In this document: piece after piece, positions 5,174 to 41,840 of the stretch
Layout of the letters: every line of letters starts with the position of its first letter
How positions within the stretch are numbered: position 1 is the first letter of the stretch
Origin: a virus
IMG/VR virus record: IMGVR_UViG_3300042465_001723
Coordinates: 1 to 41,840 of that record
Reading direction: 5' to 3' (one strand)
DNA length: 41,840 nt
The notes under the pieces: generated by a model
Told to the model about the DNA's origin: nothing
Databases searched by the model: none
Seen by the model: only the letters and a program-made list of their open reading frames with translations
Position numbers and translations under genes: made by a program

Positions 5174-5896
5174 ATGGCATATAATTTTCTTGATTTAGTT
5201 AACGAAGTGAATAGAAGATTGAATGAGGTTGAACTCACATCTTCTAATTTTGCTTCAGCTACAGGATTTTATGCACACAATAAAGATGCTGTGAATGCAG
5301 CCATCAGAGATGTTAACCACATTCATTATGAATGGCCCTTCAATCACGAAGTGAAGGAACAAGTTTTAACGGCTGGAACAATCAGATATTCTTTTCCAGC
5401 AGACGCAAATACAATTGATTTTGATTCATTTAGAATTAAAGAAAATACAGGGCTAGGAAATAAAACTCAAAAGCTCACTTTAATTTCATACGAAGAATAT
5501 TTAAATAGTTTTATAGATCAAGAGTATGCCGTAGACTCTAGCAAGAGAAAACTGCCAGAGTTTGTGTTCCATGCACCAAGCTTGGAATATGGGATAGTTA
5601 ACGCACCTGATCAGGCATACACATTGGTGTATGAATATTATCAAGTGCCTGTTGATCTTTCTGTTTATTCAGATGCTCCTACTATACCTGAACGATTCCG
5701 ACATGTAATTATTGATGGAGCTATGCTCTATGCTTACTTGTTCAGAAGCAATGAGCAAGCTGCTAACTTAGCTAAAAGTAAGTTTGATGATGGTGTAAAA
5801 CGCATGCGTACCATGTTAGTCAATCGTTATGTCAATATGCGCTCTGGTATGATTGTCCCGTCTAAAGCAACTGCCTTTGGCGACAGGGTGAATTAA
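5174..5896 (+). CDS. Head-to-tail adaptor (T7 gp11 / tubular A-like)
   Basis: A 240-residue protein. The N-terminus (MAYNFLDLVNEVNRRLNEVE) is a typical adaptor helix, followed by a region of NAAIRDVNHIHYEWPFNHE type and a beta-rich middle; the C-terminal half has the ERFRHVIIDGAMLYAYLFRSN helix commonly seen in this family. Such proteins form a 12-fold ring below the portal that receives the nozzle. Length fits (T7 gp11 is about 196, related podovirus adaptors 220-250). It is followed directly by the nozzle gene, with TAATG overlap at 5894-5898. The family call is from overall pattern; confident as a tail adaptor. Confidence 0.8.
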   Translation: MAYNFLDLVNEVNRRLNEVELTSSNFASATGFYAHNKDAVNAAIRDVNHIHYEWPFNHEVKEQVLTAGTIRYSFPADANTIDFDSFRIKENTGLGNKTQKLTLISYEEYLNSFIDQEYAVDSSKRKLPEFVFHAPSLEYGIVNAPDQAYTLVYEYYQVPVDLSVYSDAPTIPERFRHVIIDGAMLYAYLFRSNEQAANLAKSKFDDGVKRMRTMLVNRYVNMRSGMIVPSKATAFGDRVN

Positions 5897-7866
5897 TGGC
5901 TGACGCTTGGCAAACATATGCTTTTGAATTTAAGGGTGGACTTGTTTCTAACTTGTCTCCTCTACAGCAAGGTATTAATGCTCCGGGCAGTGCTCGTCTA
6001 TTGAAAAACTTTGAGCCTTCTGTTGATGGTGGCTATAGAAGAATAGAAGGCTTTGCTAAATATGACAGTGCGTCAGTGCCTCCTTATGGGTTTCCAAAAG
6101 TACATGGCAGTGGTCAAACTGGAACAACATTAATTATTGCTAATATTTTTGTAACTCCTGAAGTGAATGATACATTTACTATTGCAGGAGTTACTGGCAC
6201 GTATAGTATCAATAGCATTTCTTATGACAATGTCACTAAGAGAGCTACGCTTAGTTTAAACACTTCCCTAGCGAGTAGTCCTGCTGACTTAGCAAACATT
6301 ACCTTTGCAGCCCATAGCGGATTGATTAAAGGAATTGCTGCTTGGGAAAGCAATGTAATTTCGCTAAGAAATAATTCTTTATACAAGTCAACTGGTAGTG
6401 GATGGACAAAAATAAATGTCCCTTCTTTTGGTACAGTGTTGGTTAATGGTGCTGGTCAAACTGGCACTAGCCTCATTGTAGACGGTTTAACTGCCACTCC
6501 AAGGGCAGGAGACACATTCACTATTAGCGGCGTTGAGAAAGTGTACACAGTCACTTCTACAGCAACTGTTACAGCAGGTGGAGCCACCCTTTCTATCAAT
6601 CCTGCTTTGGCTAGTAGCCCCGCAGATAATGCTGGCTTGTCTTGGTTAACTTCTAATTATAGTGACAGTGAAAAACTGCGTGTTTCTAAATACAGAATAA
6701 GCACCACCAGCAAGATAGTTGGGGTTGACTCAGTAAACTATCCTTTTATTTATGACGGTAGCACATATAAAGTATTAGACACCTCAGCAGATTTGTTGGG
6801 TGCTTCTTTTGTAGCCTTTCATAAAAATCATTTGATGTTTGCAAAGGGCGATAAGATTATCTTTTCATCCCCTTACACTGACACAGATTTTAATGTAGCC
6901 AATGGTGCTGGTATCATTTCTATTGGTGGTGTGATAACAGGCATCATTGTGTTCCGTGAAGCACTAATTGTTTTCACTGAAAAAAGCATTAGTCAAATAA
7001 CTGGCAACACATCAGCAGATTTTAATCTTCAACCAATCACAAGGAATGTAGGCTGTGTGGCTACAGACACCATACAAGAGGTTGGTGGAGACATTATGTT
7101 CTTAGGCCCTGAAGGTTTAAGACTGCTCAGTGCAACAGATAGAACGGGTGATTTTAATTTAGGAGTTGTTTCTAAAGTTATTCAACAAGAAGCAACTGAA
7201 TTAATTTTTTCTAGTTCTTCTTTCTCTAGTGTAGTGATTAAACAAAAATCTCAGTATAGAATATTTGGATATAATAGTGCCGTCACTCCTTCTAGTGCTA
7301 AGGGTATTCTAGGAACACAGATGGCTGCTGACAATACGGCTAGTATTGCTTGGGCTGAAACCTCAGGCATTAAAGCGTATGTAGCAGACAGCGACTATAG
7401 AAACCAAACAGAAACCGTAGTGTTTGCTCACGCAGATGGTTATGTTTATCAGATGGAAAGTGGTAGTAGTTTTGATGGGGCTAATATTGTAGCTAGCTTT
7501 GCTACTCCTTATGTGCCTATCAATGATCCACGAGTTAGAAAGACTTTTTATAAATTGTTCTTGTACACAGACCCTTTGGGCAGTGTCACAACATCCGTGA
7601 ATTTAAAGCTGGATTTTGATGATAGAGGAAGTATTCAACCCGAAACAATCATCCTTTCTAATAATACAGGAAGTGTTGGGTTTTACGGTACAAGCACAGC
7701 AAAATATGGTACAACTGTGTATGGAGACAGGCTTAAAAGATTGTTTCAAACTCAAGTGGTAGGGTCTGCTTTTTCCGTATCTCTTCAATTTGTTTCAAAT
7801 AGTACAGACCCTGCCTTTTCGTTGGACGCTGCTACATTAGAATACTCCACGCATGATAGAAGATAA
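5896..7866 (+). CDS. Tail nozzle protein (tubular B-like)
   Basis: A 656-residue, beta-rich protein predicted to form the hexameric tail tube tip. The N-terminus (FKGGLVSNLSPLQQG, then ARLLKNFEPSVDGGYRRIEG) is typical of nozzle or 'stabilisation' proteins in podoviruses: a beta-propeller-like family in which strands return to a central ring. A segment of about 70 residues is present twice (residues about 66-137 and 178-250), each with GQTGT, DTFTI and LASSPAD motifs; this looks like a duplicated inserted domain that would sit on the outside of the nozzle. The rest (residues 260-656) follows the family pattern. The start overlaps the adaptor stop. Confidence 0.75.
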   Translation: MADAWQTYAFEFKGGLVSNLSPLQQGINAPGSARLLKNFEPSVDGGYRRIEGFAKYDSASVPPYGFPKVHGSGQTGTTLIIANIFVTPEVNDTFTIAGVTGTYSINSISYDNVTKRATLSLNTSLASSPADLANITFAAHSGLIKGIAAWESNVISLRNNSLYKSTGSGWTKINVPSFGTVLVNGAGQTGTSLIVDGLTATPRAGDTFTISGVEKVYTVTSTATVTAGGATLSINPALASSPADNAGLSWLTSNYSDSEKLRVSKYRISTTSKIVGVDSVNYPFIYDGSTYKVLDTSADLLGASFVAFHKNHLMFAKGDKIIFSSPYTDTDFNVANGAGIISIGGVITGIIVFREALIVFTEKSISQITGNTSADFNLQPITRNVGCVATDTIQEVGGDIMFLGPEGLRLLSATDRTGDFNLGVVSKVIQQEATELIFSSSSFSSVVIKQKSQYRIFGYNSAVTPSSAKGILGTQMAADNTASIAWAETSGIKAYVADSDYRNQTETVVFAHADGYVYQMESGSSFDGANIVASFATPYVPINDPRVRKTFYKLFLYTDPLGSVTTSVNLKLDFDDRGSIQPETIILSNNTGSVGFYGTSTAKYGTTVYGDRLKRLFQTQVVGSAFSVSLQFVSNSTDPAFSLDAATLEYSTHDRR

Positions 7867-16690: not shown

Positions 16691-19303
16691 ATGGTAAATT
16701 GGAAGAAGCTTAAAAGGTTTACAAAGAAAGTTGCTAAGGCCGCTCTTGTTGTTGCGGCCCTTGTCAATCCTGCTTTGATACCAATGATAGGTAATGCTGT
16801 CTTGGGTGCTGTTGGTGTCACTGGAGCTAGTGCTGCTGCTGTCAGTGCTGCTGGTGCTTTTGCCATCACCACAGGAGGCAACTTAGTTGCAGGAGAATCT
16901 CTAGAAGATTCGGTGATAGCAGGGGCCACTTCAGCAGCCCTTGTTGGCGGCACACAATTGTTGTCGGATGCTGGCAGCCTTAGCTTAGGAGGAGGAAGTT
17001 CCTCTGCCGCTGGTGTGGATTCAGCTAGTGTTGGTGCTGCCAACACCACTAGTGCGTATACAGGAGTGACTGGTGGGGCAGGAGCAGAAGCCCTAACTCT
17101 CCCTGCTGCTGACACTAGTATGTATTCTATCGCTCCTAGTAGCAGCGTTTCTAGTACAGGCATACAAGCAAGTGCTGGTGAAGGGGTTAACTTATACACC
17201 CCTCCCACCACTCCTGCTAGTGCAGCAGCGTCTAGTGCCGACCTCACTGCTGGTACAGGCATGCAAGCTCCTGTCACTTCTAATTTAACAGGCTCAACCC
17301 TTTCACAGCCATTTTTAACAGACATGGGTGGAGGTCAAGGACTGACAGCACCCGCTGCTGGTGGCGGCACTGTAAGTGAGGCTGGTGTTTTTGGTGCTCC
17401 CTTAGGTGCTTATGATGTTCCTTCTGTCAGCTTAACTGATGCTTATGCTGTTAATGAATTAACAAAAGACGAAGAAGACGAAGAAAAGAAAAAGAGAGAA
17501 GAAGAAGAAAAAGCAAAGAAAGAAAAAGAAGCTTTAGATTTGACAGCAGCTTTTGCTGCTATTGGTGAGCTTCTCTCTTCAAGAGATGCTGGTACAAGAG
17601 GTGAAAGAACATTTGCTGATGGTGGTGCTGTGCTTCCTACTCAGCCAACAGCAACACAAGCTCCCGTTCAACAAACAGCAATTACTTCTGGAATGACAGC
17701 AACTGCACAACAAGCAGGTGCAATACAACAAGCTACACCTACAGCAGGTGTGGTGTCAGCAGAAGTGGCTGCTCCAACAGCAGTGGCTGAAGAGAAAATT
17801 GCAGCAGACCAAGCTCAAGCTAAACTTGCTGAGAGCCTAACTGGTGTGAAAGCAGAGCAGGGTGTCTTGTCTAAAGAAGCACAAGCTCAAGCAGCCACTG
17901 TTGTTCCTACAGAGACAGCGGTTGGTAAAGAAGCAGCAGCACAGGGAGTGGCTACACAAGTGGTTGCTCCTCAACAAAGAACACTACAAGCTGGTGAAGT
18001 TGTTAGTGGTGCTGCCGTAGATCAGAAACAAGTGGAAGCTGCTCTGGCTAAGACACAGGCTGCTCAAGGAGTTGTCTCAGAAGAGATGACAACACAAGGA
18101 CAGCTTAATAAGCTTCTGACAAACTTTGATGCTGGTAACCCACCTCCGTGGGCTGCTGCCTCTATGCGTGGTGTTACAGCACAGCTTGCAGCTAGAGGAT
18201 TGGGTGCTAGTAGCATGGCTGGTCAAGCCATTGTTCAAGCCACCTTAGAAGCTGCTTTGCCTATTGCTGCTGCTGATGCTAAAGTGTTTGAACAGATGGG
18301 TTTACAAAACCTTTCTAACAGACAACAAACAGCTATGGTATTGGCTGAGCAAAGAGCTAAGTTTTTGGGTCAAGAGTTTGATCAGAACTTCCAGACTAGA
18401 GTGTTGAATGCTGCTCGTGTTGCTGACATTGCTGACAAAAACTTCACTGCTGATGTCACCATTGCTTTGGAGAATGCTCGTCTTACAAGCACAATGGACT
18501 TACAGAACTTGTCTAATAGACAAGCACTGATATTGGCAAAGACAGCACAGGTGGCTTCTCTTGAGACAGCCAACCTAAACAACAGACAACAAGTGGCTGT
18601 TGAAAATGCTAAGTCTTTCTTGGCTATGGATGTTAGAAACTTAGACAACAGACAACAAACAGCTTTGTTTAAAGCTAAGGAAATTGCTGACTCCATCATC
18701 TCTGACACTGCTGCTGCTAATGCAGCTAAAGCAACCAATGCAGCAAATGCATTAGAGGCTGACAAGGTGAATGCACAGCTGGCTTTGTCTGCTTCTCAAT
18801 ATAATACAGCAGAGAAAAACAAAGTGTCTATGTTTAACAAGTCTGCTGCTGATGAGCTTTTGAAATTTAATGCACAAGAAGCTAATAACAGAGCGGAGTT
18901 CAATGCAAACTTAGCGACACAAATTAACATAGCAAATGCTAAAGTGTTGGCAGAAGTTTCAACAGCAAACACAAGAGAAGTGAATGCTATGGCTGCTGTT
19001 AATGCTAAGAATGCTACAGACTTGTCTGCTTCCACATATGCTCAGCTTTCACAAACCTATCGTGATAGGATTGAGCAAGCATGGAAGACAGCCGATAATG
19101 ATGCAACTAGAGCTAATGAAATTACCAAGGCAAACATTACTTCTTCGATGAGTAAATACACTGCTGACTCTGCGGCAGATGGTGCTTTTTATTCATCTAT
19201 GGGCCAACTAGCTGTGGCATTACTATCCACAGGTGGAACGACAGGTGGAAAGATTGGCTTAGAGAGCCTGTACGATCTGTTTAAGAAGATAAAAGGATCA
19301 TGA
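16691..19303 (+). CDS. Large internal virion protein with 22-residue repeats
   Basis: An 870-residue protein, probably carried inside the capsid and ejected with DNA. The N-terminus is basic, then strongly hydrophobic and Gly/Ala-rich (residues about 14-66), which could insert into membranes. An acidic/basic coiled-coil block lies near 257-280 (DEEDEEKKKREEEEKAKK) and a Gln/Ala-rich linker near 300-470. Residues 538-660 hold repeats of NLxNRQ type: Asn at 540, 606, 628 and 650 (with a degenerate copy at 584), all on a 22-residue grid. Downstream to 830 is a long helical Asn/Ala-rich stretch. Composition and place fit the internal core proteins of podoviruses. Confidence 0.6.
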   Translation: MVNWKKLKRFTKKVAKAALVVAALVNPALIPMIGNAVLGAVGVTGASAAAVSAAGAFAITTGGNLVAGESLEDSVIAGATSAALVGGTQLLSDAGSLSLGGGSSSAAGVDSASVGAANTTSAYTGVTGGAGAEALTLPAADTSMYSIAPSSSVSSTGIQASAGEGVNLYTPPTTPASAAASSADLTAGTGMQAPVTSNLTGSTLSQPFLTDMGGGQGLTAPAAGGGTVSEAGVFGAPLGAYDVPSVSLTDAYAVNELTKDEEDEEKKKREEEEKAKKEKEALDLTAAFAAIGELLSSRDAGTRGERTFADGGAVLPTQPTATQAPVQQTAITSGMTATAQQAGAIQQATPTAGVVSAEVAAPTAVAEEKIAADQAQAKLAESLTGVKAEQGVLSKEAQAQAATVVPTETAVGKEAAAQGVATQVVAPQQRTLQAGEVVSGAAVDQKQVEAALAKTQAAQGVVSEEMTTQGQLNKLLTNFDAGNPPPWAAASMRGVTAQLAARGLGASSMAGQAIVQATLEAALPIAAADAKVFEQMGLQNLSNRQQTAMVLAEQRAKFLGQEFDQNFQTRVLNAARVADIADKNFTADVTIALENARLTSTMDLQNLSNRQALILAKTAQVASLETANLNNRQQVAVENAKSFLAMDVRNLDNRQQTALFKAKEIADSIISDTAAANAAKATNAANALEADKVNAQLALSASQYNTAEKNKVSMFNKSAADELLKFNAQEANNRAEFNANLATQINIANAKVLAEVSTANTREVNAMAAVNAKNATDLSASTYAQLSQTYRDRIEQAWKTADNDATRANEITKANITSSMSKYTADSAADGAFYSSMGQLAVALLSTGGTTGGKIGLESLYDLFKKIKGS

Positions 19304-19512
19304 AACACATTAAAGCTTATATGAATAAAATAGATGCGATGCTCGCTTCTACTAAGCCTTCTTCCCCTAAAAAGAAGAGCTTTGGCTTTGCTTCTTCTAA
19401 AGAGAAACCAGCAGAAGAAACAAAGAGAGAAGACATGAATATGAAAATCATTGCAGACGTTGTCCAAGGTATTAGAGAAGCACGAGAGGAACTGGTTAAT
19501 GCAAAAAGCTAA
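19300..19512 (+). CDS. Small basic protein of internal-protein cluster
   Basis: The product is 70 residues, Lys-rich, with a Ser/Pro/Lys middle (KPSSPKKKSFGFASSKEK) and a C-terminal helix (IIADVVQGIREAREELVNAKS). It starts four bases inside the preceding gene (ATGA) and overlaps the next start by 14 bases, so it is translationally coupled in both directions. No domain recognised. Its size and charge would suit a minor virion component or a DNA- or protein-binding adaptor. Codon bias is as in the neighbours, so it is likely real. Confidence 0.55.
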   Translation: MKHIKAYMNKIDAMLASTKPSSPKKKSFGFASSKEKPAEETKREDMNMKIIADVVQGIREAREELVNAKS

Positions 19513-20005
19513 AACTTCACCCTTTGATGTTATTACACCAGTACCTCCGGGTGTGTCTTGGACTGCTCCTGAGAAAAGCAGACCGTGGCAACAGCCTCCA
19601 CAGCTTACAAGCATTTCTGATGTAGCACAACGCTACATGGATATGTTTTCTAGTCCAGACGTTATGCTTAATACACTAGATGTACTAGAGAGCAAGGTTC
19701 CTCTATCTGCCATTGCTGAGTCATTGATGTTAAACAATGTATCAGAAGGGCTGCATACACTAGACGCTGGCATCTTGGTGATGCCTGTCATTATTGAATT
19801 GTTTGTTTCTATTTGTACCTTGCATAAGATTGAATACATTATCTATGCAGATGATGTGGAAAGAAACACAACAGTGCCTACTCGTATTGCCAAGCTTGCT
19901 GTAAAGAAAGCTATGGAGAAGATGGAGGAAGCAGTTCCAACAGAACAACCACGAGAAGAAAAGCCAATGGGTTTAATGGCACGTAAACAGAAAGAGATGG
20001 TGTAA
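19499..20005 (+). CDS. Conserved internal-cluster protein, unknown function
   Basis: A 168-residue protein. Start chosen at the ATG (19499), which gives MQKAKTSPFDV and keeps only a 14-base overlap; an earlier TTG would extend it by 16 residues. The N-terminal segment is proline- and Trp-containing (VPPGVSWTAPEKSRPWQQPP). Then come helices, including a hydrophobic one (ILVMPVIIELFVSICTLHKIEYIIY) that might be membrane-associated, and an acidic/basic tail ending GLMARKQKEMV, reminiscent of the end of the 1668-2216 product. Found among internal virion genes here; presumably a structural protein. Confidence 0.55.
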   Translation: MQKAKTSPFDVITPVPPGVSWTAPEKSRPWQQPPQLTSISDVAQRYMDMFSSPDVMLNTLDVLESKVPLSAIAESLMLNNVSEGLHTLDAGILVMPVIIELFVSICTLHKIEYIIYADDVERNTTVPTRIAKLAVKKAMEKMEEAVPTEQPREEKPMGLMARKQKEMV

Positions 20006-20006
20006 T

Positions 20007-21542
20007 ATGCCTTCAGCTTTAACAGCTTTCCTTGGCGGTGCAGCAGCACAAGCCACCACAATGATTGAAGCAGAGAAGAAGAATGCTAGAGAGCTTGCTG
20101 CTGCTCAGGCTTCCACCATGTTGAAAAACTACATGGAAGTGGATAAGCAAGCTAAGGACTTGTCTAGCAAGATGGCTTCAGATGTAGAGTTTTTGAAGGG
20201 CTATTATCCAGATGTCTCTGATGATGACTTAGTAGAAGCTGCTAAGAATCCAGAAGCTATGGCTGTGTTCAAGAAGAAAGCTAGTGAGCCAGACTTTGAT
20301 TCTCGTGCCATTAAGTTTAATGACTTTGTCACTGTTGCTTCTAAGAATTCTGGTAAAGATTTTAAGACTCAGATTAATGAGCTTTACGACATTAGAAAAC
20401 TGGAAGCTGCTCCTACACCAGCAGCAAAAAATTTAGGATTCTTTAGACAGATAGCAGCAGGGGCAGGAGAAGAAGAGCTTAAACGCATTGTGGCTCCTTT
20501 CGGTGTCACCCCTGAGCAGCTTAGAGGTGCTATGACTTATAAGCCTTCTGTAACTTCTGCTGCTAAGTTTAATTTGAATGCTTTGTCTACTAAGACATTT
20601 GCTCAGGAAGAAGACAAGGCTAAGCTTGATGTGGTGGCTGCACAAGCCTTGCCTAAAGACGATCCAAAAAGAGAGGCTGCTTTGGTAGCAGCCACTACAA
20701 AATTGTCTCAGTTCACTGTTGTTAAGTCTTTGGTGAGCACCGAAGGATTGACTAATGAAAAGATTCTTTCCAACTTGGTGTCTCAGATTCAAGACCTTCC
20801 TAAAGATTCTCCAAAGCGTAAAGAGTTGGAAGCTCAAGTTGAAGAACGTAAAAAACTCATGTCTTCTAAAGAAACAAAAGTTACAGAGAATGACATTAGA
20901 ACAGACTTAGCCACTCGTATCATTGAAGCTAAAAAGAGCGGAAAGACACAAGAAGCTACAGCTTTAACTGCTGAGTTGAAGCAGCGTGAAGCTTTGTTGG
21001 ATAAGGCAGAAACTGACCCCAATAAGATTTCAGCAGCTTCCTATCAAACAGCAGCTAACAGAGCCATTGCTTCTGCCATCGCCACTTATGTACCTGCTGG
21101 TGACTTCAATATAGTCACTGATCCCAATGGTAATCAAACTGTGACGTTGAAGAATCTCACTAAGACAGCAGACTATGACAAGGGCTTAAACGCAGGTAGG
21201 CTTGCTGTGTTGAAAGAATACACAAATGAGAATGGTGTTCCTAAGTCTGAAGAACACAAGCTTGCTTTGATTGCTATTGGCATTGTGTTTGATAATAGAG
21301 GTGTTGCTTCTGTGCCAACAGCCAGAACTGGCGGCGGGATTCCCGCTCCTGCTGCACCTGCACCAGCCCCTGCTGCACCAACACCAGCCCCTGCTGCCGC
21401 TGCACCTGCTCCTAAGCCGTTGCCTTCTAAAACTAAGACAGCAACTATGGCAGATGTTAATGCCTTTGCAGCACAGAAGAAACTTTCTCCTGCACAAGTA
21501 AAAGCAGACTTGGAAAAAAACGGCTATAAGATTGTAGACTGA
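20007..21542 (+). CDS. Internal virion/ejection protein
   Basis: A 511-residue, mostly helical protein. The start (MPSALTAFLGGAAAQATTMIEAEKKNARELAAAQ) is Ala-rich and amphipathic, with continuing helices through 300. A Pro/Ala-rich linker (residues about 440-475, PAPAPAAPTPAPAAAAPAP) precedes a small folded C-terminal region (TMADVNAFAAQKKLSPAQVKADLEKNGYKIVD), which looks like a helical end domain. Place between two other large helical virion proteins fits an internal core or ejection protein. The gene is followed eight bases later by the giant gene. Arg codons are mostly AGA here, unlike in the capsid gene. Confidence 0.6.
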   Translation: MPSALTAFLGGAAAQATTMIEAEKKNARELAAAQASTMLKNYMEVDKQAKDLSSKMASDVEFLKGYYPDVSDDDLVEAAKNPEAMAVFKKKASEPDFDSRAIKFNDFVTVASKNSGKDFKTQINELYDIRKLEAAPTPAAKNLGFFRQIAAGAGEEELKRIVAPFGVTPEQLRGAMTYKPSVTSAAKFNLNALSTKTFAQEEDKAKLDVVAAQALPKDDPKREAALVAATTKLSQFTVVKSLVSTEGLTNEKILSNLVSQIQDLPKDSPKRKELEAQVEERKKLMSSKETKVTENDIRTDLATRIIEAKKSGKTQEATALTAELKQREALLDKAETDPNKISAASYQTAANRAIASAIATYVPAGDFNIVTDPNGNQTVTLKNLTKTADYDKGLNAGRLAVLKEYTNENGVPKSEEHKLALIAIGIVFDNRGVASVPTARTGGGIPAPAAPAPAPAAPTPAPAAAAPAPKPLPSKTKTATMADVNAFAAQKKLSPAQVKADLEKNGYKIVD

Positions 21543-21550
21543 GGAACATC

Positions 21551-24500
21551 ATGCCACTTGTTGATGACTTTGAAAGCTTCATTGCCACCCCTTCGGAGCA
21601 GCCTACCCCTGCTTCTCCTCCACTACAAGAGAGCATTGCCAATGCTTTCGAGACTTTCAAACAAACATCTTCCGCTTTAAAGCCCTCAGAAGCCCCTACA
21701 GAGGTCCCTTCTTTTGGGGGATATAGGTCTAGGGCTGGTGTGGGGAGAACCCCTGCTCCTGCCCCTGTAACAGAGCCTACACCTGCTAAGCCTTCTGTCC
21801 TAGACATTGCTAAACAAAGCAGTATTCAAGCCAAAGCTAGTAATTTAGAGAGGCAAAAGAAGATTGAAGAAGGCCAGTTCTCTTTTAAAGACTTGTCTGA
21901 GAAGCCTGACACATTCAAAGCAATCAATGACTATGCCGTAGCTAGGTTTGGCAAAGAGGGAACTATGCTTCCTAATGAAACCAAGGATGATTATGTTAAG
22001 CGGTGGGCTGGTCACATGCGTATGCTTTCTTTTGGTAACCTTATTTCAGGTACACAAGAGCTTCAATATCTAAACAACGCTAGCCAAGAAGACTTATTAA
22101 AAGCCAAGAAAGCTTATGACATCTTTGACAGCACTGCCAGCTACTTCAGTGCTAAAGGACAGAAGGGATTTACCCCTGTCCTAGATGCTTTAGGTAGCAT
22201 TGTGTCTGACCCCACCACAGCCATCTCTTTAGGCGCTGGTACTATAGCAAAGAATGTCTTTGCTAAAGAAGCAGCAACTAAAGGATTGAGAGCAGCCTTG
22301 ACTAGTAGGCTTGGAGCAACTGCCGCTGTTACAGTGCCCACTGTTGAGGGAACAGGTGCTGCCTTGTCTAATGTACAAGAGCAACGTAGAAAGCTTATTA
22401 CACAAGACGCTGCTAATAAAGACTCTAGAGCAAAAGTGGAACAGGCTAAGCAAGTGGTGGCACAGCTTCCTCCTGAGCAGCAAAAAGAACTGACTGATCA
22501 AATCAAAGAAGTTGAAACCACATTAGCAGCAGAAGAAAAGAAAGTTGCTGAGGGTATCAATCTTGCTGAGGTGGGCACTGCTGGCACTATCGGTGCAGTG
22601 GCAGGTACAGCAGAAACTGCTGGCTTGTTAACAGCAGCTAGACTTGCTACAGGCAAGACACCAGTGAATGAGCTTGATGCTATATTGGCACAGCGACAAC
22701 AAGCTGCAAGAGGACGTATAGAGCCACAGATGGATGTGTCTGTCCCTCCTCCAAAGGTGGAGATAACTCCTAAAGATCCCACAGAGACACAGCTTGAAGA
22801 TGCTTATGACATCTTTGAAGGTAGGAAGCTTCTGGATAAAGAGGGAGATCCTACAGCCATTGCTGAGATGCAAATAAGAAATGATGTGAACAAGAAAGCT
22901 GCACAGATTGCTGGCAACATTTGGTCACAGGTTCCTGAGCTTGCTCCTAAAGCAGATCAAAAAGTTAGCGATGCTGTCAAGAATGTTTTCATGAACATTG
23001 ACAACATTGATGATGTTGTTCTTCGTGATGCTCTTTCTAATGCTGGTGTTACACCAGAAGAGTTTGCTCGTATGAACAGAACAACAGCAGGAGATGCTGG
23101 TCGTACCTTACAAGCCTATTCTGTGCTTGCTCGTATTCAGAACAAGCTTAAGAACATTGACCCTGCTGCTGCCAAAGAAGTTGATTTGATGTATGGCAAA
23201 CGCAATACACTTACCTCTGCCTTCACTGGCTTGTATGATTTATCTCTGAGACTTGATAGAGAACTTAAAGCTCTGATGGTGTCACAAGTGGCTACCACCA
23301 TTCGTAACGGCTACTCTGGCTTGGCTGTTGTCACCTTTGGCACAGCCTCTGAAGCTGTGGAGTCTGCTCTATATCGCATGGGCAAGACAGCCTATGAACT
23401 TGGTAGTGGTAAGCCACTGACAGGCAGCTTCACTGGTGGCATCAAAGGTGTTTATGATGATGCTGTTAGAACAGCTTTCTATTTAGGCCAAGGCAACTTA
23501 TCTTCTGATGTAGCAGAGAGATTGCTTGCTGGTTCACCAACATTGCGTGGACGCATCTTACGTACAGTGGGTGAGAACGAAGCCGCTGAACTTTCTAAAG
23601 TGGCACAAATAGCTAATACATTAAACGTAGCTCAGGATGCTTTCTTTAGAAAAGCCATCTTCACTGCCTCTGTTGAGAAGCAACTCAGCAGAGTTGGTAT
23701 TGATATGTATGATGTGATGGCTCAAGGAAAGAACATTCCTATTGATGTTCTTAAGAATGCTACAGATGAAGCCTTGGCTGCTACATTTAGCAAGATGCCA
23801 ACACAGGGCATTATGTTTCATGGCGTTAAGTTTATTGAAGCACTAGGCCCTGTTGGTTCCACTGTCATTCCTTTCCCCCGCTTCATGGCTAACGCTATGT
23901 CATGGACGTACAAGCATAGCCCTATGGGAATCTTCTCTGGTGCTGGTGACATAGCTAAAGGATCTGCTATGTTGAAGGCTGGAAACGAAGAAGGTCAAAG
24001 GTATTTGATGCAGGGTTTAGAGAATACTTCTAAGGGTGCTATCGGCACTGCTGCCATCTATGCTGCTTATAAATACAGACAAGAAAACCAAGACACCAAC
24101 TGGTACGATGTAAAGAATCCAGACGGTAGCACAGTGGATGCGAGAGCTTTGTTCCCTGCTGCTCCTTTCCTTGCGATGGGTGACTACTTGGTTAAGTTTG
24201 GAAAAGCTAGAACAGATGAGTTTAAAACCAAGGAATTCTTAGAGGCTATGACAGGCTTTAAAGTACCTGCTGGTACTTCTGCTTGGTTGGGAGATAAGTT
24301 TGCTGAGTCCTTGTCTAATATGCAGACAGGTGAAGGCAGTGCTGACACTAAGGTTGCTACGTTCTTTGGTGAATGGGCAGGACAATATTTAGGTAGGGCA
24401 CTCATTCCTTTGCAACAAGTGAGTGATTTGTTTGGTGCTATTGATAGAGATGAAACTCTGCCTAGAGATGCCTATCAAATCCCTGCTGGTGAGGAAGGCT

Positions 24501-27190
24501 TTGTTTCTTCTGCTGCTGCACAGCTACAAAAGAAAGTGCCTGTCTTAAAGCAAGAGCTTCCTGTATTTCAACCCGCTACAAGAAAAGAAGCAGCGTTCAA
24601 TGACTCTGGCCCTTTGAAGATGTTTACTGGTATCACCATTAAAGGAAAGCCACAGCCCTTAGAAGAAGAGATAAGCAAGCTAAAAATTCCTTTCAATAAA
24701 ATCTTTACCACCACTGGAGATAAGATTGTAGATGCTAGTGCTCGTAAGGTGATGGCTCCTTTGGTTGTAGATACGTTTACATTGCTTGAGGGTACAGACT
24801 TCTATAGACAGGCTAGCCCTGATGAAAAGAAAATTGCTTTGCAAAACCTGCTTGCTTGGGCACAGAAGAATGCTAAGGAGATTGCTTCTCAAACAGCTAT
24901 GGCAGAAGCCTTTAACAAGGGAGAGCAAGCACGTTTGTTTGCTGTGCAATATAGCAAGCTGCCCCCAGAAGTTAAGAGAGCCACAGCAGAATTCTACAAG
25001 CGAAATATAGGTAAAGACTTGGCAGAAACTAAAGACTATATGTCTGCCTTGTCCATCGCTGCTGCCCTTAAGAAGCAGCCTGAGTTTGCTGGTGGTGGTT
25101 TAGCTAAACAGATGGCTGAGACTCTTATTGGTAAGGGTACAGCTAAGGTGGCTACTAAGTCTGTGATTCAGTCTGCTGATGAGTTGTTGCAGAAAGCAAC
25201 TGACATGGCTGCTAAGGCAGGGGTGTCTATACCTCCTGCTGCTAAGCAGACAGAGGAAGTTCTTCCTGCTGCTAAACAAACAGAAAACTTGCTTAGTCAA
25301 AAGGGAACTGAGGTAGTGGTTCCTGCTGAACAGCAAGTAGCTGGTGTCATTAGCAAACCTGCTGAGGCAAAGCCAAGTGTTATTGATTGGAGCAAATATT
25401 CAGAAGAGCAACTACAACAAGCTGAGTCTTTGTTAAAGACTAGCATGGGGTCGCAGTATCAACTGGATAAGTTTAAAGCTAGCTCTTCTACAGATTACCA
25501 GAAAAGCTTACTAGCTAAGCTGCAAGAAATTGCACCAGAAGGAACAGCCACACCACCAACACCAAAAGATTTGTCTATTGTGTCCCCAGACATTGTCTTC
25601 ACTCCTTTGAACATAAGAGATAAGAAGAGGCTGGCTGAAATACCAGACTTGGGTAAGCTTCCTATGGCTTCAAATGACACCTTCAAAAGAAAAGAATTGC
25701 TTCATAATATTAGACAACTAAGACAAGAAGCTTTCCCTCTTTTGATAGACCAGCTAGACCAGCTTTCGTTTATTAAAGGCGCTAAGCCTTTAGATGATGA
25801 AGTTGTTGCTGTTGCTCAAGGTGAATACAGAGCGGCTAAGGGTAGAGAAGTTGATGTGAATGATGCAGCCTCTGTAGAAGACTTTGCTTCGCTTGCTTCT
25901 AAGCTTCAGAACAAGCTGGATGACTTGCGTATTAAATATAAAGACACACCACCTGTTGTTCTTTATCATGGCAGCAGAACAGAACGTACAAAAGAAAAAC
26001 TAGCAAGAGGTTTCTATGACCCACAAACAAACAAGAAGTCTCATGCAGAGTTGAATGCAGGAGCCATCTCATTCACCAAAGACCCCAACTTGAATTACTT
26101 TGTAGAGAAGTTTGGTGGCAAAGAGCCTAAGAACATTTCACAAACTGTGATGCCATACGCTGAGTATGAATTCAGAAGAGTGAACATGACTCCTGATGCT
26201 TATGACAAACAAGATATAAACTATCTTGCTAGAACAATTACAGGTAGTCCATCTGTAGCTAGACCTCTGAGCATTCCACGATCACAAACATTTAAAGAAA
26301 CAGAAGATGCTTTTATTGAAGCAGACAAGCTTAAGATCACTCAGGATGTGAAAGCTGTGGAAGAGAAGTATGGGCTTATCCAGAAAAGAACAGAAGCTAT
26401 TGACGATGCGTTCAGTAAACTTGAAGCTTATGATGCTGCTCCAATTAGTACAAAGCAAGACCCGCTTGCTTCTTATGAAGCATATAGAAACATCCGCACT
26501 CTTTTCAAAGAGCTTAGAAAACAAAGTGATGTGACATCTACAAAAACAGGCTATGGTCAAAACTATTTAATTGGTTTAGAAAAGTTTGGCCCTGCTCTGA
26601 TTAATATTATTAACGATGTTCAGTTTGCTTTCAAAACTCAGAAGGCTATGAAAGGAAGTGACAAGCCTTCCTTGCTTGCAACCTTTAAAGAGCAGTTAGA
26701 GATTCTTACTAAGAAGCAAATAAACCCAATCACTGGAGATTTGGACATGGCTACAGTGAAGGAAAAGACTAAGGCTATGAATAAAATTCAGCAGCTTACT
26801 CCTAAGCTTAACAAGGGTGGTGCTTTAGGACTAAAGAAAGACAGCACACAAGGTGGACTAGCACCATATGGTGTTAGACACAGTGGTGAAGGTGTTAAAG
26901 GTAAGGGATTTTTTGGTTCTCTCCCAACTAAACAGGGAGATGTGGCTACAGAAATGTCTTCTGAGTTTGAATATAAAGGAAAGAATGTAGAGCATCCCCT
27001 CATTGTGCCTACATTAAATAAAGCTGAGCTTGATCATCTGTTGTCTGGTAAGCAACCTACAGAAGCCATCTACTCAAAAGCACAAGCCTTCGCAAAGAAA
27101 AGAATAGATGAGGGTAAGGGTACGTTTGCTGAGCCTACAGAGATACGCTATCCTGTGCCTGATCAAAAGGGACTAGCTTCTAGAAAATAG
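21551..27190 (+). CDS. Giant internal virion protein with candidate ADP-ribosyltransferase domain
   Basis: A 1879-residue protein, probably packaged and ejected into the host. Residues 1-120 are Pro-rich and disordered. Regions near 200-235 and 330-365 are Gly/Ala-rich and hydrophobic. Residues about 630-930 form a helical block including GSTVIPFPRFMANAM and GAIGTAAIYAAYK; it resembles domains of large polyvalent phage proteins. Residues about 1460-1545 look like an ADP-ribosyltransferase: VVLYHGS (His1473), GAISFTKDPN (Ser1507-Thr1509) and EYE (1538-1540). A C-terminal domain (about 1770-1860, VEHPLIVPTLNKAELDHLL) recurs in other phage proteins with no known role. Nothing here resembles the lysozyme-type domain found in some internal proteins. 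The gene ends the late block. Confidence 0.65.
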   Translation: MPLVDDFESFIATPSEQPTPASPPLQESIANAFETFKQTSSALKPSEAPTEVPSFGGYRSRAGVGRTPAPAPVTEPTPAKPSVLDIAKQSSIQAKASNLERQKKIEEGQFSFKDLSEKPDTFKAINDYAVARFGKEGTMLPNETKDDYVKRWAGHMRMLSFGNLISGTQELQYLNNASQEDLLKAKKAYDIFDSTASYFSAKGQKGFTPVLDALGSIVSDPTTAISLGAGTIAKNVFAKEAATKGLRAALTSRLGATAAVTVPTVEGTGAALSNVQEQRRKLITQDAANKDSRAKVEQAKQVVAQLPPEQQKELTDQIKEVETTLAAEEKKVAEGINLAEVGTAGTIGAVAGTAETAGLLTAARLATGKTPVNELDAILAQRQQAARGRIEPQMDVSVPPPKVEITPKDPTETQLEDAYDIFEGRKLLDKEGDPTAIAEMQIRNDVNKKAAQIAGNIWSQVPELAPKADQKVSDAVKNVFMNIDNIDDVVLRDALSNAGVTPEEFARMNRTTAGDAGRTLQAYSVLARIQNKLKNIDPAAAKEVDLMYGKRNTLTSAFTGLYDLSLRLDRELKALMVSQVATTIRNGYSGLAVVTFGTASEAVESALYRMGKTAYELGSGKPLTGSFTGGIKGVYDDAVRTAFYLGQGNLSSDVAERLLAGSPTLRGRILRTVGENEAAELSKVAQIANTLNVAQDAFFRKAIFTASVEKQLSRVGIDMYDVMAQGKNIPIDVLKNATDEALAATFSKMPTQGIMFHGVKFIEALGPVGSTVIPFPRFMANAMSWTYKHSPMGIFSGAGDIAKGSAMLKAGNEEGQRYLMQGLENTSKGAIGTAAIYAAYKYRQENQDTNWYDVKNPDGSTVDARALFPAAPFLAMGDYLVKFGKARTDEFKTKEFLEAMTGFKVPAGTSAWLGDKFAESLSNMQTGEGSADTKVATFFGEWAGQYLGRALIPLQQVSDLFGAIDRDETLPRDAYQIPAGEEGFVSSAAAQLQKKVPVLKQELPVFQPATRKEAAFNDSGPLKMFTGITIKGKPQPLEEEISKLKIPFNKIFTTTGDKIVDASARKVMAPLVVDTFTLLEGTDFYRQASPDEKKIALQNLLAWAQKNAKEIASQTAMAEAFNKGEQARLFAVQYSKLPPEVKRATAEFYKRNIGKDLAETKDYMSALSIAAALKKQPEFAGGGLAKQMAETLIGKGTAKVATKSVIQSADELLQKATDMAAKAGVSIPPAAKQTEEVLPAAKQTENLLSQKGTEVVVPAEQQVAGVISKPAEAKPSVIDWSKYSEEQLQQAESLLKTSMGSQYQLDKFKASSSTDYQKSLLAKLQEIAPEGTATPPTPKDLSIVSPDIVFTPLNIRDKKRLAEIPDLGKLPMASNDTFKRKELLHNIRQLRQEAFPLLIDQLDQLSFIKGAKPLDDEVVAVAQGEYRAAKGREVDVNDAASVEDFASLASKLQNKLDDLRIKYKDTPPVVLYHGSRTERTKEKLARGFYDPQTNKKSHAELNAGAISFTKDPNLNYFVEKFGGKEPKNISQTVMPYAEYEFRRVNMTPDAYDKQDINYLARTITGSPSVARPLSIPRSQTFKETEDAFIEADKLKITQDVKAVEEKYGLIQKRTEAIDDAFSKLEAYDAAPISTKQDPLASYEAYRNIRTLFKELRKQSDVTSTKTGYGQNYLIGLEKFGPALINIINDVQFAFKTQKAMKGSDKPSLLATFKEQLEILTKKQINPITGDLDMATVKEKTKAMNKIQQLTPKLNKGGALGLKKDSTQGGLAPYGVRHSGEGVKGKGFFGSLPTKQGDVATEMSSEFEYKGKNVEHPLIVPTLNKAELDHLLSGKQPTEAIYSKAQAFAKKRIDEGKGTFAEPTEIRYPVPDQKGLASRK

Positions 27191-39939: not shown

Positions 39940-40039
39940 TCCAAGTCTCCATCCACATTACAACAGCTACAAAAATAATACCACCAGCGAAAGCTCCAAA
40001 GGCAGCTAACACTAGGAAAGTAAAGACCGATTCAATCAT
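39932..40039 (-). CDS. Tiny single-pass membrane protein
   Basis: A 35-residue frame beginning at an ATG four bases inside the end of the recombinase gene. Residues 5-29 are one hydrophobic helix (VFTFLVLAAFGAFAGGIIF). The end is METWND. Likely made by translational coupling to the recombinase. No family recognised. Confidence 0.55.
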   Translation of the reverse strand: MIESVFTFLVLAAFGAFAGGIIFVAVVMWMETWND

Positions 40040-41133
40040 ACAAACCCTCTCATTCTTGCCGCCACTGTAGCACCCTTCAGCGTATGCTTCAAGTATGGTG
40101 CAACACTTTGGGGTGTGGCATGCCCTGTCATAGCCATGATGTTTGGTAATGGCACTTCTGCTTCAATCATCTCAGTGACAGCAGTGCGTCTTAAATCCAT
40201 CAGCTTAATTTCTTCAGGCAGTTGTGCTTCTTTCTTTATCACATCACCAACCCTAGATAAGTTCATCAATGAATAGGGCAACAATCCACCCTGTCTATCT
40301 GACGCATTGCTAGGTGCAACATATTGTTGCCACCCATACTCAGCATGTTGTTGCTTAAGCATTGCTTGCAATCCTTCTGATGTAGGCAAAGTGATACGTG
40401 CTCTACGCTTGCTCTGCTCAAGAGACAACACCCCTGTATCCATGTTGTAGTTTTCCCACTTCAACATACGCATGTCCCCCATCCGCTGTCCCCATTCATA
40501 TGCCATCTGCACAATGAGTCCTACGTTGCGCCATTTAAACGAGCTATAAGCCATGTCAAGAAAGGCTTTGACATCTTCCTTTGTCCAGACAGTTTTACGT
40601 GCCTTGTCAATCCTTCTCTGCACCTTGCTGAATGGATTGTGATTGGTGAAGCCTTGCCTTATGGCATAGTTGAACAACAACCGATACACTGCAAGCACAT
40701 GGTTGGCAAGGCTAACACTCTTGGCAGCATGTTCTTCATACACACGCTGACACATCGGGGTATGTATGTCTTCAAGCTTTGCCCACATCAAAGGCACACC
40801 ACCCAATCTACTGTGCTTCCAGTTATTTAAATAATATAAATAACTTTCTTGTGTTTTTTCACCTAGCTTTTCAAAGCTCAAGCTCACTGTGTAAGCTTTG
40901 ATTAGGTCACTCACCTTTGCATTTGTGGTTAAGTTTTTTAAATGCTTACGTTCTTTTCTCCACTCGTCCAAGATTTTATTCTGTTCTTCAGCGGCAGCAT
41001 ACGCTGTTTGATACACATCCCCAAGCTCCATACGTTTAACAACACCAGCCTCTACAGCATCTGCTGGTGGGTTATATCTCCACTTAGACTTGCCTCGTGA
41101 TTTAAAGCGCAGAACATATCTAGGCATGCTCAT
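40036..41133 (-). CDS. int: Tyrosine recombinase / integrase
   Basis: A 365-residue site-specific recombinase. N-terminal part is the arm-type and core-binding region (LTTNAKVSDLIKAYTVSLSF; QESYLYYLNNWKHSRLG). The catalytic domain has R217 in EWGQRMGDMRML, K242, the box MDLRR with R315, TGH with H338, and Y347 in APYLKHT. The usual first His of the HxxR box is Met312 here, which is uncommon. It could integrate the phage into a host chromosome, as known for some podoviruses, or resolve multimers. It sits inside the coupled early block, between a 59-residue and a 35-residue gene with ATGA overlaps. Confidence 0.88.
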   Translation of the reverse strand: MSMPRYVLRFKSRGKSKWRYNPPADAVEAGVVKRMELGDVYQTAYAAAEEQNKILDEWRKERKHLKNLTTNAKVSDLIKAYTVSLSFEKLGEKTQESYLYYLNNWKHSRLGGVPLMWAKLEDIHTPMCQRVYEEHAAKSVSLANHVLAVYRLLFNYAIRQGFTNHNPFSKVQRRIDKARKTVWTKEDVKAFLDMAYSSFKWRNVGLIVQMAYEWGQRMGDMRMLKWENYNMDTGVLSLEQSKRRARITLPTSEGLQAMLKQQHAEYGWQQYVAPSNASDRQGGLLPYSLMNLSRVGDVIKKEAQLPEEIKLMDLRRTAVTEMIEAEVPLPNIMAMTGHATPQSVAPYLKHTLKGATVAARMRGFV

Positions 41134-41309
41134 GGTTTCTTCTCTTCTATGTAGCCTACAAGCCTAGCTGTCCTACGCAAGTCTTCTATCACAAGCTCAG
41201 CATGCTCTGATGATATGGCATACACAATGCAAGTACGTATGCCTTCGTCAGTGTCATAGCCAGCAATGAATGGTTTCCATTCGTTTCCCTTAGAATCTGT
41301 GATGTTCAT
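41130..41309 (-). CDS. Small protein between glycohydrolase and integrase
   Basis: A 59-residue frame beginning with MNITDSKGNEWKPFIAGYDT and ending VGYIEEKKP. It overlaps both neighbours by four bases (ATGA), which is strong support. Contains one Cys and a helical C-terminal half. No family recognised. Confidence 0.6.
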   Translation of the reverse strand: MNITDSKGNEWKPFIAGYDTDEGIRTCIVYAISSEHAELVIEDLRRTARLVGYIEEKKP

Positions 41310-41840
41310 AGCTCTCCCAATTCATAGAGGTTTTCTGCCATCTGCAATAGCTCGTCATGCTTCATCAACTTGTTGAGCCAGCGTTTCGGTATGGCTTTGT
41401 ATCCATACTTTCTACCAGCTAACATGCCTGTCACTGCACCCACTGTGTCAGCGTCATAGCCTTTGTTCACAGCCCTGATCAATGCGTCTTGAAAAGAAAA
41501 CGTAAGGTCAACACATTCCCATGCCGCATTGTAGGCATACATGATGGAGCCTTTGCCTTTCTTCATATCATATTCATGATCGAGCAAGTGCTCAAACTCA
41601 TCAAGCTGTTTACCTGCATAGAGTTCAGAGACAAAGGCAGACATGTAATGGACAGTGTCAGCATTACCGTGTGTCATCAACGACACAGCAATGGCCTCAC
41701 CAAGCCCTGTCTGCGGCCTGTTGTGGTTGGCTAACACCACAGGAGCAATACGCATGATGGAGCCATTACCGCTAGACCTAGTGCCTGTGCTGCCTTTATA
41801 TGGTTGCTCTGTTGTCATGCTCTCGATGGCTTCAAAGCAA
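41306..41840 (-). CDS. ADP-ribosylglycohydrolase (5' end outside window)
   Basis: The C-terminal part of about 178 residues is present and the frame is open to the window edge. GNGSIMRIAPVVLA and DADTVGAVTGMLAG are the two family signatures: the first is a Mg-site and substrate loop, the second has the DxDT metal-binding motif. These enzymes (DraG/ARH type) remove ADP-ribose from proteins, or act on related small molecules. The N-terminus with the other metal ligands is upstream. Located upstream of the integrase, so it is part of the early block. See findings for possible pairing with a transferase domain in the late giant protein. Confidence 0.85.
   Translation of the reverse strand, partial: CFEAIESMTTEQPYKGSTGTRSSGNGSIMRIAPVVLANHNRPQTGLGEAIAVSLMTHGNADTVHYMSAFVSELYAGKQLDEFEHLLDHEYDMKKGKGSIMYAYNAAWECVDLTFSFQDALIRAVNKGYDADTVGAVTGMLAGRKYGYKAIPKRWLNKLMKHDELLQMAENLYELGEL

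Follow-up and report, generated by a model that had tools for sequence, protein, structure and literature searches.

ADP-ribosyltransferases (ARTs) carry an Arg or His on strand 1, a Ser or Tyr on strand 2 and a Glu on strand 5 (PMC7827354). A known phage ART is T4 Alt, an enzyme of the R-S-E class that is packaged and injected (PMC5512222, PMC9503650). A 2017 study added predicted ARTs within injected polyvalent proteins (PMC5512222); the active site of their ART-PolyVal family is H-Y-D, with the Tyr in strand 2 and the Asp in strand 5 (PMC5512222). According to a survey, only about 3% of podoviruses have ARTs and glycohydrolases are rare in phages; an ART and a glycohydrolase are paired in certain Aeromonas phages (PMC9503650). 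Here we analyse an IMG/VR virus contig of 41,840 bases (IMGVR_UViG_3300042465_001723; the whole stretch is called the window below) from a podovirus related to HMO-2011. Its giant late protein of 1879 amino acids (21551..27190, plus strand) contains an ART-like domain at residues 1435–1600 (25853..26350, plus strand). We consider it rather likely that this region is an ART enzyme with an H-S-ExE active site, delivered by the virion and matched by a phage-encoded ADP-ribosylglycohydrolase as eraser.

An earlier note on this DNA had proposed an ART domain from the succession of VVLYHGS, GAISFTKDPNLNYFV and EYE within the giant open reading frame (ORF). All three are present, VVLYHGS at residues 1469–1475 (25955–25975), and thus starting one residue later than the 1468 originally given, GAISFTKDPNLNYFV at residues 1504–1518 (26060–26104), which includes GAISFTKD (residues 1504–1511), and EYEF at residues 1538–1541 (26162–26173), with EYE itself at 1538–1540. 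Successive searches of IMG/VR with the domain returned 18, 57, 77 and then 114 related loci. Residue conservation was counted over 56 aligned relatives, reaching down to 41% identity with the window domain. Near-invariant positions form an island, with 33 of them in residues 1441–1600, two in the preceding 80 residues and none in residues 1601–1640; residues 1201–1360 likewise have none. H1473, G1474, E1500, S1507, F1508, D1511, Y1536, Y1551, E1583, E1585 and K1593 are invariant (56/56), and T1509 is a Thr in 55 rows and a Ser in one. This invariance across the relatives shows that the VVLYHGS/SFT pattern exceeds chance. EYE is no conserved motif, since E1538 is replaced by Asp in 48/56 rows and E1540 is retained in 21, the other 35 having Val, Leu, Met or Ile.

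The structure of the trimmed domain was predicted with AlphaFold2 from the 56-row alignment (pLDDT 92.0, pTM 0.85). A prediction with longer flanks and a 31-row alignment (pLDDT 80.9) gave the same answer in the fold search, more weakly. When the model was compared with structures in the PDB, all hits at ranks 1 to 40 were ART-superfamily proteins (best E 0.004), among them RES toxins (probability 0.98), ParT (TM 0.49), exotoxin A domain III, tankyrases/PARPs and diphtheria-type toxins; an unrelated fold first appeared at rank 41, with a probability of 0.08. The model therefore supports the ART core fold with its split β-sheet, as had been anticipated. As the 40 entries represent just a handful of families and the best E value is 0.004, this evidence is good, not overwhelming. 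In a viral model library the single strong match was an uncultured phage protein (49% identity) whose name says no more than polyvalent-protein-associated domain.

According to this model, the invariant residues are arranged as in ARTs, with a His on strand 1, a Ser on strand 2 and a Glu on strand 5, the strands being numbered from their order. The candidate NAD-binding residue His1473 (25967..25969, plus strand) lies on strand 1469–1474 and Ser1507 (26069..26071, plus strand) on strand 1506–1509; the placement of the His on strand 1 and of the SFT step on strand 2 in the earlier note is borne out by the prediction. Ser1507 would take the position of the Tyr in H-Y-E and of the Ser in R-S-E enzymes, an equation made by strand order, not by superposition. 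As third catalytic residue, Glu1538 or Glu1540 had been put forward. Both were rejected, because they are located in a predicted helix (1536–1542) and vary among the 56 rows, and the one acidic pair that is both invariant and suitably placed is Glu1583-x-Glu1585 (26297..26305, plus strand), beyond the region that the note had considered. This pair is the candidate catalytic ExE. Glu1585 opens strand 1585–1588, and the surrounding TEDAFIEADKL is what we take to resemble the PARP strand that begins with the catalytic Glu; this likeness makes Glu1585 the better candidate for the catalytic role. In R-S-E enzymes, a Glu two residues ahead of the catalytic Glu favours arginine targets (PMC7827354), a rule that derives from that class and may not carry over to a His-type site. 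The target here would be a protein, perhaps at arginine.

A second gene related to ADP-ribosylation is found at the end of the window. It encodes an ADP-ribosylglycohydrolase (41306..41839, minus strand), the candidate eraser, whose N-terminus is cut by the end of the record. The fragment matches PF03747 with 90.1 bits (cut-off 26.2; E 2.6e-25), and among 17 full-length relatives the TDD, TH and DADT residues do not vary, so that both the profile score and the metal-site and TH residues are those of the DraG/ARH family. The nearest solved relatives are DraG-type ADP-ribosyl hydrolases; the top entry is 6dre, which we take to be Tri1, an immunity protein that counters Tre1, an ART acting on FtsZ. 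Directly downstream, on the same strand, lies an integrase gene (40036..41133, minus strand; PF00589, E 2e-16).

Co-occurrence was surveyed in 42 related records, 30 with and 12 without the ART domain. The glycohydrolase is present in 27/30 of the former and in 0/12 of the latter (naive Fisher test, 4e-8), and the three ART-bearing records without it stop 4.0, 13.5 and 9.7 kb past the giant gene. Measured along single uncut contigs, the glycohydrolase lies 12.9–20.5 kb past the giant gene on the opposite strand. The reverse search, starting from the glycohydrolase, found the ART domain in 11 of 22 contigs; judged by coordinates, the other 11 end before the ART position, and thus all 11 contigs that are long enough carry it. 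In the uncultured relatives of HMO-2011, the ART domain is therefore tied almost one-to-one to a dedicated eraser, a near-perfect association. The glycohydrolase adjoins a same-strand integrase in 78/80 loci. That it is a mere hitchhiker of the integrase was considered and rejected, because ART-less genomes keep the integrase in 9/10 records and the glycohydrolase in none. As a control for the possibility that the pairing merely mirrors clade structure, the accessory gene thyX was followed; it does not track the ART domain (14/15 versus 5/8).

The ART-like domain has been grafted onto a late protein of HMO-2011 type in a modular fashion. The base part of the giant protein is homologous to HMO-2011 gp22 (1128 aa) and to proteins of CRP-9 (1141 aa), CRP-345 (1156 aa) and ctYwJ313 (1218 aa), in all of which the ART domain is absent. 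The C-terminal module spans about residues 1186–1879 (25106..27187, plus strand), with an approximate junction. A search with the base part returned 80 IMG/VR loci, 76 of which were examined; the ART domain is in the same ORF in 55, complete ART-less ORFs of 1072–1315 aa are found in 14, and seven are undecided, nearly all because the contig ends there. In the loci L035, L040 and L042 the module is a gene of its own, beginning 2–15 bases after the stop codon of the base gene (L035:9263, L040:4648, L042:about 9200), and can therefore be regarded as a cassette. On a tree of the base part, the presence of the ART domain requires at least four changes, a number of gains and losses that is approximate because the tree holds some long branches (CRP-9, ctYwJ313). 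One ART-less locus (L233; contig 3300032301_000349; 59% base-part identity) is nested among ART-bearing phages and its protein ends at 1315 aa. The glycohydrolase is missing from this phage along with the ART module, which makes it a natural case of double loss or of a swap. In three other contigs (G455, G456, G457), the open frame with the ART domain is merely 612–629 aa long.

The position of the giant gene gives an indication of how its product may reach the host. Three late ORFs of 870, 184 and 511 aa precede it (16691..21542, plus strand), a putative run of ejection proteins by positional analogy to gp20–24 of phage SU10, which are such a run (PMC9509320). As the last in this run of large late ORFs, the giant protein, itself of HMO-2011 type, is most likely an ejection protein; its place among the late genes makes packaging and ejection plausible. 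None of the three preceding ORFs matched a family. The 870-aa (16691–19303) and 511-aa (20007–21542) products, for which no Pfam or PHROG assignment was convincing, are themselves candidate ejection proteins.

We propose the following sequence of events. The giant protein would be packaged and would enter the cell with the phage DNA, carrying the ART. At the onset of infection this enzyme would, like T4 Alt, transfer ADP-ribose from NAD+ to a protein of the host. Production of the glycohydrolase following entry, or in lysogens, would later allow the modification to be removed; alternatively, the glycohydrolase might guard producing or lysogenic cells, or cells meeting the ART. A more elaborate version, which we put forward tentatively, holds that the ejected ART gives a pulse of modification ended by the integrase-side glycohydrolase, that this eraser also immunises producers and lysogens against the ART of sister phages (superinfection control), and that H-S-ExE marks a distinct ART family.

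Several observations weigh against a virion-delivered ART with its own eraser. At the sequence level, ART family profiles gave zero matches to the domain. None of the fold matches falls below E 0.001, and their TM-scores are 0.4–0.5. When kinship is allowed for, the pairing with the glycohydrolase is reduced to three independent contrasts, all concordant (p 0.25), which are too few for significance. Finally, no virion proteomics was found for HMO-2011-type phages that would document packaging or ejection.

Other functions were weighed as well. The ART fold may instead belong to an NAD+ degrader, that is a RES-like NADase or NAD+ phosphorylase draining or reshaping the NAD pool of the host. RES toxins are the top fold matches and, together with ParT (PDB 9r35, 6gw6, 6d0h), provide the closest structural likeness. 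A profile–profile comparison with RES (PF08808) in hhalign gave, however, a probability of 0.3, no better than shuffled controls, so that the resemblance to RES is one of fold and not of sequence profile. The genetic context differs as well, the RES and ParT genes forming two-gene toxin–antitoxin operons and the present domain being part of a phage late gene. Moreover, the strict pairing with a glycohydrolase fits tagging better than NAD+ degradation, because this glycohydrolase family is expected from a survey to prefer macromolecular conjugates (PMC9503650). We therefore regard NAD+ degradation as unlikely.

A different interpretation starts from the pair itself. DraT/DraG, Tre1/Tri1 and the Aeromonas phage pairs of ART and ADP-ribosylglycohydrolase (ARG) all combine a writer with a DraG-family eraser; Tri1 shields against Tre1 by ADP-ribose removal (PMC7827354), and the ART-ARG pairs of some Aeromonas phages are toxin–antitoxin pairs (PMC9503650). 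By analogy, and in view of the nearly constant position of the glycohydrolase beside the integrase, the two genes might form a toxin–antitoxin or lysogeny-maintenance pair acting inside the producer or lysogen, virion delivery being incidental. In contrast to these systems, the writer is here fused to a late virion-type protein, a putative ejection protein in most relatives, and the eraser is far away beside the integrase, on the other strand and in a different module, unlike a two-gene operon. This makes an intracellular pair improbable, more so than NAD+ degradation.

Pfam and PHROG scans of the whole giant protein and of 12–31 domain rows found no family. Membership in the ART-PolyVal type (Tox-ART-HYD2, PF18760), which the earlier note had suggested, was not upheld. 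PF18760 gave no match even at E=10 in the window and 18 related phages; since the prototype, the vRNAP of Roseovarius Plymouth podovirus 1 (PMC5512222), does match with the same tools, the search works. A harvest of PF18760 proteins from 399 genomes for a family profile yielded nothing, and a comparison profile was built from the prototype and its relatives in phage records. Against this profile, only the YHG motif aligned in hhalign, in register (score 25, controls ≤18); throughout, reversed or shuffled profiles served as hhalign controls and scored at most 19. In both systems an ART-like domain resides in a late phage protein of very large size that is presumed to be injected, and the strand-1 His belongs to a YHG motif. 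The Tyr of strand 2 and the Asp of the late strand are, however, absent here, Ser1507 and Glu1583/Glu1585 being invariant instead (H-S-E versus H-Y-D), and the domain is carried by an HMO-2011-type protein in place of a vRNAP. With T4 Alt, the domain shares the strand-2 Ser, the ExE and the proposed delivery with the DNA. It differs in having an invariant His rather than the strand-1 Arg of the R-S-E class, in showing no recognisable sequence similarity, in being one domain of a giant podovirus protein, and in the accompanying glycohydrolase.

Relatives were also sought more widely. No relative of the domain was detected in a phage-isolate collection, nor, by the peptide patterns that were applied, in 84,980 prokaryote genomes. 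PDB sequence searches returned KptA below threshold and chance matches such as peroxiredoxin. By both PDB sequence search and hhalign, KptA/Tpt1 (PF01885) was the best sequence-level relative, in hhalign aligning in register at the YHG strand-1 motif (score 36.9, probability 72, 26 columns) over a PPxxLYHGT...GF stretch, as would be expected of an RNA 2'-phosphotransferase that helps to repair host or phage tRNA cut by defence systems. Beyond the first strand and helix, however, the similarity stops, the Tpt1 site is H-H-V and lacks the catalytic Glu (PMC7827354) whereas Ser and ExE are invariant here, no RNA ligase was recognised among the scanned window proteins, and a glycohydrolase is not part of such repair; we hold this function to be very improbable. 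Just as improbable is a catalytically dead ART fold with a structural or binding role, to which the missing strand-2 Tyr of H-Y-E enzymes might point, because His, Ser and both Glu are invariant in relatives down to 41% identity and the domain is co-inherited with an eraser. The description that suits the domain best is that of a separate, divergent ART family.

The relationship of the phage follows from its structural genes. Genes for portal, adaptor and capsid are recognisable in the window. The portal is 62–88% identical to those of the spring-water phage ctYwJ313, HMO-2011 and the roseophage CRP series, and the best match of the tail protein is in CRP-345 (56.5% identity); from these similarities the window phage can be assigned to the HMO-2011-type podoviruses, with which it shares a homologous portal, a homologous tail protein and the late gene order. 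The arrangement from the late genes to the ribonucleotide reductase (RNR) gene is common to the window, HMO-2011 and CRP phages. A 656-aa tail protein (5896–7866) matches PF21430 (E 7e-8), the B domain of distal tail protein pb9; this family belongs to siphovirus tails, whereas the window phage is a podovirus. At the end of the giant protein, a small stretch (residues 1768–1865; 26852–27145) is found in only about 16% of the relatives and shows 31–43% identity to hypothetical proteins of Acinetobacter podophages, Pseudomonas phage vB_PaP_DMTU_1 and Methylophilales phage MEP301. It had no PHROG match and is read as a mobile domain.

What is new is an H-S-ExE lineage of ARTs missed by current profiles, attached to a late protein of HMO-2011 type and paired near-perfectly with an eraser that is linked to the integrase. 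Since the base protein occurs with the module, without it, and with the module as a separate gene, natural controls exist. Two questions thereby become open to a concrete test, namely whether ADP-ribosylation is brought in by phages as a reversible pulse and whether lysogens are shielded by the eraser. HMO-2011 belongs to a group that ranks with the most abundant ones in marine viromes (PMC6918029). Our results suggest that uncultured relatives of these phages possess a matched tag-and-untag system for taking over bacteria and, if this is true, a distinct ART family would be at work in the kin of a phage group that counts among the most abundant in aquatic habitats.

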